From: Peptostreptococcus porci
GTDB taxonomy: Bacteria; Bacillota; Clostridia; Peptostreptococcales; Peptostreptococcaceae
DNA: 64,000 bases
NCBI RefSeq assembly: GCF_009695815.1
Contig: NZ_VUNE01000001.1
Location: 372,001 to 436,000, forward strand
Reading direction: 5' to 3'
Shown: piece after piece, positions 51,557-55,017 of the stretch
Layout of the letters: the number at the start of each line of letters is the position of its first letter
Position numbering within the stretch: the stretch's first letter is position 1
Notes under the pieces: model-generated
Told to the model about the DNA's origin: nothing
The model's input: only the letters and a program-made list of their open reading frames with translations
The model's database searches: none
Program-made: the position numbers and the translations under genes

Positions 51557-52564
51557 ATGATATGGAAAAATAAAAATATAAATAAGCATAGAGTTATCGA
51601 TAGCAAAGATTTGAGTCAAAACACTCAAGAAATAAAGCTGGACAGCGAAGCAATCAGAAGATATAAGGAACAAGATACCAGAAGAGATTTGGATGAATTT
51701 GAAGAACATAGAAAGGTCGTCAAGCGAAGTAAAAATAAAATTTTGGCACTAATAATTTTCTTGGTGCTGGTTTTGTTAGTCATTTTTGGTCTGATTTTTA
51801 TGAGATACTCAGCAAGGATATCTCATTTGGAAGCAGATGCAAATAAATATTTGACAAATGAAAACTATAGGGGGGCGATGGAGCTTTACAAAATTTTATA
51901 TTATGAAACTGGTGATATTGAATATGATAAAAAATGTAAGCAAATTGAGTCTATCTTAGAAAATATGGAATTGTTGAAAGAAGCTAATTCAATGGTTATG
52001 TCTCAGGACTATGAAAATGCTATCGAAAGATTGCTGACAATATCTACAACTGACGAAAAACTGATAAAGAATATTAATAAATTGATAGAGGATGCAGCAA
52101 ATAAATGGATCAACGAAATTGAGTTATTATACTTGAAAAATGATTTGGACTCTGCATTTCTTCAGATTGAAAAAATGATAAATATACTACCAGACAATGA
52201 TTATGCGATTGCACTCAGAGAAAAAATACTGAATAAGAAAAATGGAAATCAAAGCTCATCAGAGGTTGCGACTGACAGTGCCAATATGGTTGCAGAATCT
52301 AAGAAAAACAAGAGGCTATTGCAACTATCGAAGTCTATTATAGGAAGTGAACAATATGTTACGGCTGTAAAAGCAAATGTCAGAGAAAAACACGACAAAA
52401 ATTCCTTGATAACAGACACGCTAGAAAAAGGCGATATGGTCTATGTTGAAGATACGTTTATCGAAAATTCATCTAGAATGTGGTGTAAAGTAACATATTT
52501 TTCTACCAAAAATGTTAGTGTGACAGGATGGATATTATCAAATGAATTGGATGGAAGTATATAA
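51557..52564 (+). CDS. Membrane-anchored protein with helical repeats and SH3 domain
   Basis: A 335-residue single-pass protein: a charged cytoplasmic N-terminus (about 55 residues), one membrane helix (ILALIIFLVLVLLVIFGLIF, about 59-78), then TPR-like helical repeats (ANKYLTNENYRGAMELYKI and VMSQDYENAIERLLTI), a Ser-rich linker and a C-terminal SH3-like domain (about 270-335, ending VTGWILSNEL). SH3 domains on exported proteins often bind peptidoglycan peptides. No known family name applies. GGAGG lies seven bases before the ATG. Confidence 0.75.
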   Translation: MIWKNKNINKHRVIDSKDLSQNTQEIKLDSEAIRRYKEQDTRRDLDEFEEHRKVVKRSKNKILALIIFLVLVLLVIFGLIFMRYSARISHLEADANKYLTNENYRGAMELYKILYYETGDIEYDKKCKQIESILENMELLKEANSMVMSQDYENAIERLLTISTTDEKLIKNINKLIEDAANKWINEIELLYLKNDLDSAFLQIEKMINILPDNDYAIALREKILNKKNGNQSSSEVATDSANMVAESKKNKRLLQLSKSIIGSEQYVTAVKANVREKHDKNSLITDTLEKGDMVYVEDTFIENSSRMWCKVTYFSTKNVSVTGWILSNELDGSI

Positions 52565-52600: not shown

Positions 52601-52659
52601 AAAACATCCCACGTTTTAGAATCATAAAATGTGGGATGTTTTCTTATGCTAGGGACGAC
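52601..52659. repeat. 59-bp direct repeat with hairpin, copy A
   Basis: This repeat equals 54412-54470 with one mismatch. It contains acatcccac and gtgggatgt, a stem with a T-rich right side, so it can be a terminator. It lies on the left side of the Schlafen/AlbA gene. Confidence 0.9.
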
Positions 52660-52712
52660 ATTTGTGTCGAAATTTTTTATTATAATCTATTAAATTCAGC
52701 TGAGATTATGTT

Positions 52713-54257
52713 TTATTTTTTTAAAATTATCCACCTACCAGATTTAGTAGAGCCTTCTCTTGCGATTCGACCATCTGATCTTAGCTTCTTAATATGATAA
52801 CGAACTCCATCGAATGAAATATCTAAATTATCTGCAAGTTGTTTTGCAGTAATATTTGGTTCAATTGTCATAAATTCTATTATTTTATCTGGTATAGATT
52901 TATCTATATTTATTTCTTGGGTAGTTTCTTGAGTAGTTTCTTGGGTAGTATTGGTACTGATATCTCTCAAAAACTCTTTATTTATATACAGAACTGCATT
53001 CGTGTAGTTATCTTCAATATTGTCTGGATAGAATTTTAGTTTAGGTGATCCATTTTCTAACAATGAATCTTTTGCTCGCCTTATACCTGATCCGTAAGAC
53101 TCTATTAAGTTAAGTGAAAAAAACATATCTTTAAGTTCCTTATTGATATACTGTCTTCTGTCAAAGCTTCTGTCTTTGTTGAGTGATTCGATTGTTACGG
53201 GTGGAAGCGGTCTGTTATGATTTACAAAAGAAATTCTATCTTTGTAAATATATATTCCCACATATTCAGGCGTATCATATTCTTTGTGTAAAATAGCGTT
53301 TGTAGAAAGTTCCTCAAATGCTGTAAGGGGATAATTATAGATAATCTTATGCTCAATTTTATCAGCTTCTCTTATGGTATATGAAGCCATAATATTATCT
53401 TCAAAATATTTGCTAACTTGTTTTGCCTGTATCCAAACCGGCCCATCAAATCTTTTTGATTCCATTTTATCCGTTCCGTCAATTTCTCTTATAATTTCAA
53501 CATGGGCATTTGAAATAAACTTATTTGGTTTTTCCGAAAACATCAGCACAGCAAAATTTTTTGCTCTATATCCCCCATACTCACTTTCACTGACAAGACC
53601 CATACTCTTTGCCATATCCAGTTTCGTCATTTCTCTAATATCTTTTTTTGCTCCTGTCTGAAGTAGATATTCTTTTATATATTCATAGCTTAAATCATCT
53701 ATGGTAGCCGTATCATTGAGATTGGAACTGAAAGAAAATCCTGAAAACTTCTTTAATAGTTCAAATTCTTCTGTTGGATTTGGAAGCCTTGAATCTCTGC
53801 CTACTCTGATATATCTTCCTGTTTTTAATTTAATATCTTTGTCCTTTTCCGCTCTTTCACTTGTTTGAAAAGGTCCATTGCTGCTACTTTCTACTGCAAT
53901 AACAAGATAGTATTCATCATCGATTCTATCTGTAATAATGTGATAGTTTATTTTTGGATGGATATTGGAAAGGAGTGATTTTAATTCATTTTCAATCCCT
54001 TCAATTTTGGACTCCTTTATACCCTCTATAGGTCTTTTAGGAATTGCTTTTTCCCCTGTTTCTTTATCATCAACTTCTTCAATACCAATGAACAACAGTC
54101 CAATCTCATTATTCATATAGTTATTGGCAAAGGCACAGGCAGTTTTTAAAATTTTATCTTTAAAGTTTGCCGACTTTTTATACTCGATAAAACTGCTTTC
54201 TATGTTTTTGTTTTCAAGAATGTTATGTGCCAGTTTCTTTATATCTAAAATTTGCAT
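52713..54257 (-). CDS. AlbA_2/Schlafen-domain ATP-binding regulator with HTH
   Basis: A 514-residue protein. The N-terminal AlbA_2 (Schlafen) domain (about 1-170, NKNIESSFIEYKKSANF, IGLLFIGIEE) is followed by an ATP-binding domain with AFEELSTNAILHKEYDT (GHKL N-box-like) and FSLNLIESYGSGIRRAKD. A short linker with TTQE repeats leads to a C-terminal winged helix (DKIIEFMTIEPNITAKQLAD, SFDGVRYHIKKLR). Such proteins are widespread, often near mobile or defence DNA, and their function is little known. GGAGG lies four bases before the ATG. The gene is flanked by 59-bp direct repeats. Confidence 0.85.
   Translation of the reverse strand: MQILDIKKLAHNILENKNIESSFIEYKKSANFKDKILKTACAFANNYMNNEIGLLFIGIEEVDDKETGEKAIPKRPIEGIKESKIEGIENELKSLLSNIHPKINYHIITDRIDDEYYLVIAVESSSNGPFQTSERAEKDKDIKLKTGRYIRVGRDSRLPNPTEEFELLKKFSGFSFSSNLNDTATIDDLSYEYIKEYLLQTGAKKDIREMTKLDMAKSMGLVSESEYGGYRAKNFAVLMFSEKPNKFISNAHVEIIREIDGTDKMESKRFDGPVWIQAKQVSKYFEDNIMASYTIREADKIEHKIIYNYPLTAFEELSTNAILHKEYDTPEYVGIYIYKDRISFVNHNRPLPPVTIESLNKDRSFDRRQYINKELKDMFFSLNLIESYGSGIRRAKDSLLENGSPKLKFYPDNIEDNYTNAVLYINKEFLRDISTNTTQETTQETTQEINIDKSIPDKIIEFMTIEPNITAKQLADNLDISFDGVRYHIKKLRSDGRIAREGSTKSGRWIILKK
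52917..52955 (-). repeat. Short in-frame repeat encoding (Thr-Thr-Gln-Glu)3
   Basis: A 12-bp unit (gtagtttctt plus two bases) is repeated three times on the plus strand, giving TTQETTQETTQE in the minus-strand protein, directly before the winged helix. Confidence 0.75.
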
Positions 54258-54411
54258 AATGCCTCCTATTGGAAAATTATTTCAAAGTATTATAGTCTTT
54301 TTTTCATTTTTTTTACTTGGGATTTAGCAAATATTTGTGATAACAATTTAAATAATAAAAAATGTATTTATATAAGATTTATATAGGACTTAAGAATTGT
54401 TAAAAAAATTA

Positions 54412-54470
54412 AAAACATCCCACGTTTTAGAATCATAAAGTGTGGGATGTTTTCTTATGCTAGGGACGAC
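54412..54470. repeat. 59-bp direct repeat with hairpin, copy B
   Basis: Same as 52601-52659 apart from one base. It lies between the Schlafen gene and dcd, after the 3' end of the leftward dcd gene. Confidence 0.9.
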
Positions 54471-54492
54471 CTTTATGTTGGTCATCTCAATT

Positions 54493-55017
54493 TTATTTTT
54501 CAAAGTCTTTATACATTAAAGAAGGCTGGATTCCAACGTTATTTTGATATTTTCCACTACTATATAAATCGTAGTCACCGTGGATATCATGATAATATAT
54601 CTGGCAAATTTCAGTATTTGGATAGATTACTATAGGTTGAACGCAGAATATCTCCAAAGTCCAATATCCAGCGAATCCGATATCACCAAAACCTGCTGTA
54701 ACATGAATAAATAAACCAAGCCTACCAGTCGAAGAACGACCTTCAAGCATGGGTACAAATTTTTCTGTTTTTGTGAACTCATTTGTTCTACCAAGGTAAA
54801 GTTTATTCGGTTCCAAGAGCAATCCTTCTTCAGGTATTACCAATTTTTTTACCGGATTTGGAATTTTCATATCCAATACATTGTTTTCATAAACAAGCAG
54901 TTCGTTGAACAAAGATAGATTGTAACTATTAGGGTTTATTTTTTTCTTATCAAAAGGCTCAATAATTATATTTTTTGACTCAACATTCCTTAGAATTTCT
55001 TTTCCAGATAGTATCAT
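54493..55017 (-). CDS. dcd: dCTP deaminase
   Basis: A 174-residue enzyme of the dUTPase fold that deaminates dCTP to dUTP in pyrimidine synthesis; some members also hydrolyse dUTP. The start MILSGKEILRNVE, the key motif EGRSSTGRLGLFIHVTAGFG (Arg/Ser/Ser) and IGFAGYWTLEIF with the catalytic Glu are seen. Length is close to the family's. The leftward gene ends just before repeat copy B, which probably acts as its terminator. Confidence 0.92.
   Translation of the reverse strand: MILSGKEILRNVESKNIIIEPFDKKKINPNSYNLSLFNELLVYENNVLDMKIPNPVKKLVIPEEGLLLEPNKLYLGRTNEFTKTEKFVPMLEGRSSTGRLGLFIHVTAGFGDIGFAGYWTLEIFCVQPIVIYPNTEICQIYYHDIHGDYDLYSSGKYQNNVGIQPSLMYKDFEK

Follow-up and report, generated by a model that had tools for sequence, protein, structure and literature searches.

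Proteins with the architecture SLFN, HATPase and winged helix (wHTH) have been described as nuclease effectors in BREX loci (PMC12839542). Minimal mobile elements were described in Neisseria by Saunders and Snyder (2002), as summarised in PMC3898611. Other known systems close to the locus reported here are Tn1549-like transposons and genomic islands bounded by attL and attR. The settling of single genes in chromosomes without a recombinase is poorly explained. Peptostreptococcus porci carries a Schlafen gene framed by two copies of a terminator, within a window of 64,000 nucleotides (assembly GCF_009695815.1, contig NZ_VUNE01000001.1, positions 372,001 to 436,000), which is the whole stretch of DNA analysed and to which all coordinates refer unless stated otherwise. 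The protein family and the donor elements are already known, and the islet with its duplicated terminator is a novel variation on single-gene insertions. Our literature search found nothing direct on terminator duplication around single genes.

The inserted Schlafen gene (52713..54257, minus strand) encodes 514 aa and lies between two convergent native genes, one for an SH3_3-domain membrane protein (51557..52564, plus strand) and dcd, encoding dCTP deaminase (54493..55017, minus strand), which is transcribed towards the former. The gene possesses its own promoter region (54258..54317, minus strand), with TATAAT at 54294-54289 and GGAGG before the start codon, and this region is conserved with the copies in conjugative elements. 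Copy A of the terminator repeat (52601..52668) is on the side of the SH3 gene, with hairpin arms at 52601-52618 and 52625-52642, and copy B (54412..54479) is on the side of dcd, with arms at 54412-54429 and 54436-54453. The 59-bp direct repeats reported in the earlier note, 52601-52659 and 54412-54470, indeed differ by one mismatch. Copies A and B are 95.6% identical over 68 bp, with looser similarity out to 78-89 bp. Each copy also holds the terminator hairpin that had been claimed, with 18-bp arms (94% and 89% complementary) and a loop of 6; the RNA fold of the copy A hairpin on the plus strand is about -24 kcal/mol. An A-run and a T-run flank the hairpin on opposite sides in both copies, so the hairpin can act as a terminator in both directions.

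A single gene lies between copies A and B, and the rest of the segment consists of 44 bp and 154 bp. The inner spacers, from the gene stop to copy A (52669..52712, 44 bp) and from the promoter region to copy B (54318..54411, AT-rich), have no match in relatives. No integrase, relaxase, transposase or other element sequence was found between the copies. The segment thus agrees with the small cargo cassette that had been proposed, in that it behaves as a small one-gene insert.

The repeat occurs twice in the whole 2.16-Mb genome, as copies A and B only, and has no copy in eight congeners. The 24-nt exact core of the repeat gave no match in viral contigs. With a 20-nt core and up to 3 mismatches, zero matches are expected in shuffled windows; the two copies exceed chance. 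Across the window and a further 360 kb of its contig, no other intergenic direct repeat reaches the thresholds of 40 bp or more, 80% identity or more and a spacing of 0.3-8 kb, and the remaining direct repeats there are coding, hsdS-like and cell-wall-repeat by appearance. A known RNA was rejected as the identity of the repeat, as Rfam matches were sub-threshold and to an ordinary hairpin. A dispersed family, or the attachment site of a cassette series, was rejected with the two genome copies and none in congeners or viral contigs; the search for other cassettes with the same repeat, suggested in the earlier note, likewise returned no further copies in the genome or the eight congeners.

The protein matches SLFN_AlbA_2 (PF04326, E 8.4e-19) and HATPase_c_4 (PF13749, GHKL ATPase, E 2.6e-10), followed by the winged helix HTH_24 (PF13412, E 2.8e-5). 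Residues E20, E25 and E60/E61 are invariant in 11 relatives. The catalytic residues of SLFN13 are E205, E210 and D248 (PMC5862951), and the three positions of the P. porci protein are spaced like these, a match by spacing only. Describing the protein as a regulator, as had been done, is probably the wrong emphasis, considering the three-carboxylate spacing similar to Schlafen RNases (PMC5862951) and the nuclease-effector architecture known from BREX (PMC12839542). Judged by its family, the P. porci protein probably serves as an anti-phage RNase effector, either on its own or in an accessory role. PADLOC gave weak matches, to Argonaute-system proteins, and the predicted structure (mean pLDDT 46) was too poor for use. 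Ahead of the winged helix, the protein has a TTQE linker, the product of 12-bp repeats that lie in frame at 52916-52951, and the number and sequence of such linker units (TTQE, TTKE, TTTK) differ widely among relatives. DNA similarity to many relatives ends at about 52963, with 52713-52963 of the window diverged, and therefore one N-terminal part is combined with diverged forms of the C-terminal winged-helix part. This pattern suggests a domain exchange.

The Schlafen gene was absent from all eight congeners. It is present as a single copy in the P. porci genome, which does not support the copying by duplication that had been offered as an alternative. In a scan of species genomes, 29 loci were found (about 25 relatives), mostly with 77-88% protein identity, in Streptococcus, Veillonella, Lachnoanaerobaculum, Mogibacterium, Peptoniphilus, Aedoeadaptatus and others; Mycoplasmopsis and Fusobacterium are additional hosts. 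Absent from the congeners, yet mostly 77-88% identical in distant Bacillota, the gene is foreign to the P. porci chromosome. About 11 relatives, the majority of those that are intact, have a topoisomerase gene on one side and a giant mobile-element gene on the other, and CD1107-like and MobA/L genes occur upstream. These loci are Tn1549-like conjugative elements, and the relatives are mostly their cargo. This is in agreement with the expectation that genes of this type lie near defence or mobile DNA, as the relatives are found in mobile DNA and once in a BREX locus.

DNA similarity to the relatives spans only the promoter and gene, from about 54317 to the stop codon. A repeat travelling with the gene was rejected, since relatives share promoter and gene only and the repeat sequence differs per host. 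Two solitary copies (L097 and L103) keep element sequence around the gene. Three copies (L107-L109) retain the terminator of the element and have no repeats, whereas the copies in the window and in Aedoeadaptatus pacaensis (L106) have lost it and are framed by duplicated host terminators. A search for a conjugative-element remnant in P. porci with three marker proteins, covering the window and 376 kb of the genome, found none of them. Phage cargo was rejected, the gene being found in no phage record. Mycoplasmopsis gallopavonis (L154) possesses a 77%-identical copy near insertion sequences; Mycoplasmopsis, a mollicute, uses a different genetic code, so this copy represents a transfer into an organism with another code. 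In Fusobacterium vincentii (L155, NZ_CP084075.1), a BREX locus holds a 76%-identical Schlafen gene between a PDC-M12-like pair and PglX. The 2.1-Mb record is listed as a plasmid, and its size suggests a chromosome.

The closest congener, G007, whose dcd protein is 98% and SH3 protein about 90% identical, possesses neither the Schlafen gene nor the repeats. The gene framed by both repeats is thus not common to all relatives. The search for an empty site that the earlier note advised gave a partial answer: gene and repeats are absent from G007, but an inversion breakpoint lies exactly there, and a clean empty site, with the P. porci terminator intact and in one copy, was not found. The convergent partner of the SH3 gene in G007 is a dapA-like gene and that of dcd is nrdB, while in P. 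porci the dapA-like gene and nrdB face each other; one inversion with breakpoints in the two convergent intergenic regions would give this difference. In several other congeners, the dapA-like gene and nrdB are 3-50 kb apart on one contig, so the P. porci arrangement is probably the older. The SH3/dcd neighbourhood is intact in one genome only.

The left, outer flank of copy A matches G007 as far as the hairpin arm, and the right, outer flank of copy B matches it through to the other arm; similarity stops at the hairpin on both sides. In the alignment, the left base of the hairpin arm lies beside the SH3 gene of G007 and the right base (TAGCATAGGAAAACA) beside dcd. Half of the dapA/nrdB hairpin is found beside nrdB in G007, and the dapA-like/nrdB intergenic hairpin is the other inversion breakpoint. 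The arm remnants on both sides are most simply explained if one terminator separated the SH3 gene from dcd in the ancestor. With the gene absent from eight congeners and a single terminator inferred as the prior state, entry by recombination at a terminator, as first proposed, is largely right. The breakpoint at the terminator in G007 and the insertion in P. porci would then be two independent events at one hairpin, each in a different lineage. Alternatively, the ancestor may already have possessed the gene and both repeats, and G007 may have lost all of them in the inversion. Imperfect inverted repeats (AGCTCTATGCAAAAAGCATCC...GGATGCTTTTTGCATAGAGCTT) are present at both G007 inversion breakpoints in opposite orientations, and further copies of this family are found in G007 and in the P. 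porci genome (family coordinates: G007 L026 2550-2630 and L011 2170-2250; G000:C1:142845-142909). This family may correspond to a miniature element with a role in promoting the inversion.

Similar to P. porci, A. pacaensis (G803) has the gene framed by direct repeats, here of 80 bp and 97.5% identity, with exactly two copies in the genome. These repeats consist of the last codons of mprF and its terminator and are unrelated in sequence to the repeats of the window; they are host sequence. Both loci have the order first gene, terminator, Schlafen gene, terminator, converging second gene, and in both the sequence outside the two repeat copies is native and the sequence inside is foreign. A second Aedoeadaptatus genome (G807) has the Schlafen gene with both repeat copies, and in a third (G811) the 3' end of the gene and copy 2 remain behind an inserted transporter operon. 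Two further species (G808 and G810) have empty sites. The site of G810 holds one unrelated terminator, and as a small downstream gene is missing too, it is no simple before-state. In the mprF comparison, G803 pairs with G811 and G807 with G810, which makes the islet old in Aedoeadaptatus. The repeats probably recombine with each other, as the two G803 copies are closer to one another than corresponding copies are between species (about 75-88%). The 3' site of mprF (L203-L208) is variable in content, with the Schlafen gene in G803 and G807 and nothing in G808 and G810. In G811 it holds substrate-binding/ABC transporter and DUF169 genes, and in G806 a transport operon and a stretch that by eye resembles the C terminus of a serine recombinase.

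A third, less clean case is Oribacterium sinus (L118), where hairpin repeats of 112 bp (90% identity, spacing 1843 bp) lie around a decayed copy. These repeats also enclose a small HTH (HigA-like) gene, and their tail comes from a dispersed family; full repeat copies are only these two in the 200 kb sampled. About 17 other non-element or relic copies are without flanking direct repeats, which shows that the duplication is no obligatory step. Near one of the unframed copies (L113), a local repeat is present in inverted copies. Samples of 200-424 kb gave a background of none or one such intergenic repeat in every 200-400 kb, and by a rough estimate two to three framed among about 20 copies is beyond chance. 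The framed arrangement has a separate origin in at least one other genus.

The islet does not match known classes of mobile DNA. An insertion sequence or transposon was rejected because one non-transposase gene lies between the repeats and the duplications, of 68, 80 and 112 bp (P. porci, Aedoeadaptatus and O. sinus), are not short and of fixed length. As it stands, the islet does not qualify as an integrative element with att sites, since the insert has no integrase gene. An integron gene cassette was rejected because the segment contains no integrase and the repeat is a symmetric terminator hairpin occurring twice in the genome.

Both copies are flanked by native sequence on the outer side and by foreign sequence on the inner side, which corresponds to the geometry of a target duplication. 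To our knowledge, transposases make far shorter target duplications. The variable, overlong duplication and the lack of a recombinase in the insert favour capture at a staggered break, and our preferred reading, held tentatively at somewhat under an even chance, is that a cargo gene of an element was captured singly, with its own promoter, at a breakage-prone bidirectional terminator, which was duplicated. The Schlafen gene, together with its promoter, would have come from a Tn1549-like conjugative element, either directly or through another host, and the insertion would have taken place in the bidirectional terminator that separates two convergent host genes. Hairpins between convergent genes may be prone to breakage. 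If a staggered break occurred around a hairpin that was extruded or processed, and the overhang contained the hairpin region, the gene fragment would be taken up at the break, and the long direct duplication would result when the overhangs were filled in. About 70-80 bp of host DNA with the terminator would thus be duplicated, one copy on each side. The outcome would be tolerated or favoured because all three genes retain a terminator. The copies that keep the terminator of the element are unrepeated and those that lost it are framed, so selection for insulation may help retention.

An unlikely but possible alternative is that a small DNA circle, on which the gene was joined to a copy of the host terminator, entered the resident terminator through a single homologous crossover (Campbell-type), or that strains exchange cassettes of gene plus terminator by transformation. 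A single crossover yields the terminator-gene-terminator geometry, the close identity of the two G803 copies indicates that the copies probably recombine, and the differing content of the mprF 3' site between species is similar to a minimal mobile element as summarised in PMC3898611. Against this, it leaves open how the circle obtained the right host terminator in each unrelated genus.

We regard as doubtful that the islet is the remains of a larger conjugative or mobilisable element with attL and attR at the terminator, which lost everything but the Schlafen gene. The relatives that are mostly element cargo, the solitary copies L097 and L103 with element sequence around the gene, and the recombinase-like stretch of G806 beside mprF would fit such a degenerate element. 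Nevertheless, only the gene and the two short spacers lie between the repeats, with no integrase or relaxase, and the repeats are wholly different between cases. We know of no duplications of 68-112 bp made by Tn1549- or Tn916-type integrases or by serine recombinases, and the observed duplications are unlike the products of either. Least probable is an insertion without duplication, with the terminator copied across later by gene conversion or local duplication and kept by selection for insulating transcription: the framed copies in the window and L106 have lost the element terminator that the unframed L107-L109 keep, and repeat copies seem able to convert each other, but 95.6% identity over 68 bp with native outer and foreign inner flanks is what one event is expected to give, and copying in two steps across 1.8 kb would have to be assumed on two independent occasions, which is less simple.

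Beyond the capture reading for this locus, bidirectional terminators between convergent genes might be a general integrase-independent, terminator-duplicating entry port for single genes, a generalisation that we consider speculative and rather improbable. At such a port, the hairpin would break, a foreign gene would be taken up, the terminator would be duplicated and the three transcription units would stay insulated. The port would be used recurrently by the Schlafen defence-type gene, and perhaps by others. This gene moves among very distant bacteria, alone as well as inside conjugative elements. A host terminator duplicated around one foreign gene provides a concrete, searchable mark and a testable mechanism, and the pattern points to a little-noticed route for the entry of single genes into genomes.

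Compared with the BREX-associated Schlafen RNase (COG2865-type), the P. porci protein has the same domain order (SLFN/AlbA_2, HATPase_c_4, wHTH), but its gene stands alone, with no BREX or defence gene adjoining. The islet shares with Tn1549-like transposons of the CTn2/CTn4 type (topoisomerase, CD1107-like, MobA/L) the same unit of gene, promoter and ribosome-binding site, and is without all element genes and the element terminator. As in an attL/attR genomic island, its foreign insert lies on the 3' side of a gene and is bounded at either end by direct repeats; it differs in having no integrase, a single gene, and a repeat that is host terminator DNA varying by host. With the minimal mobile element, as far as the summary in PMC3898611 describes it, the islet shares a whole-gene cassette between two conserved genes, without a mobility gene, and content that varies between related genomes, as in a minimal mobile element, was seen at the Aedoeadaptatus mprF site. 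Incorporation of the minimal mobile element is by homologous recombination in the flanks, which for the P. porci islet is putative. The definition given in that summary does not include a direct duplication of the host terminator, whereas the P. porci islet possesses one.
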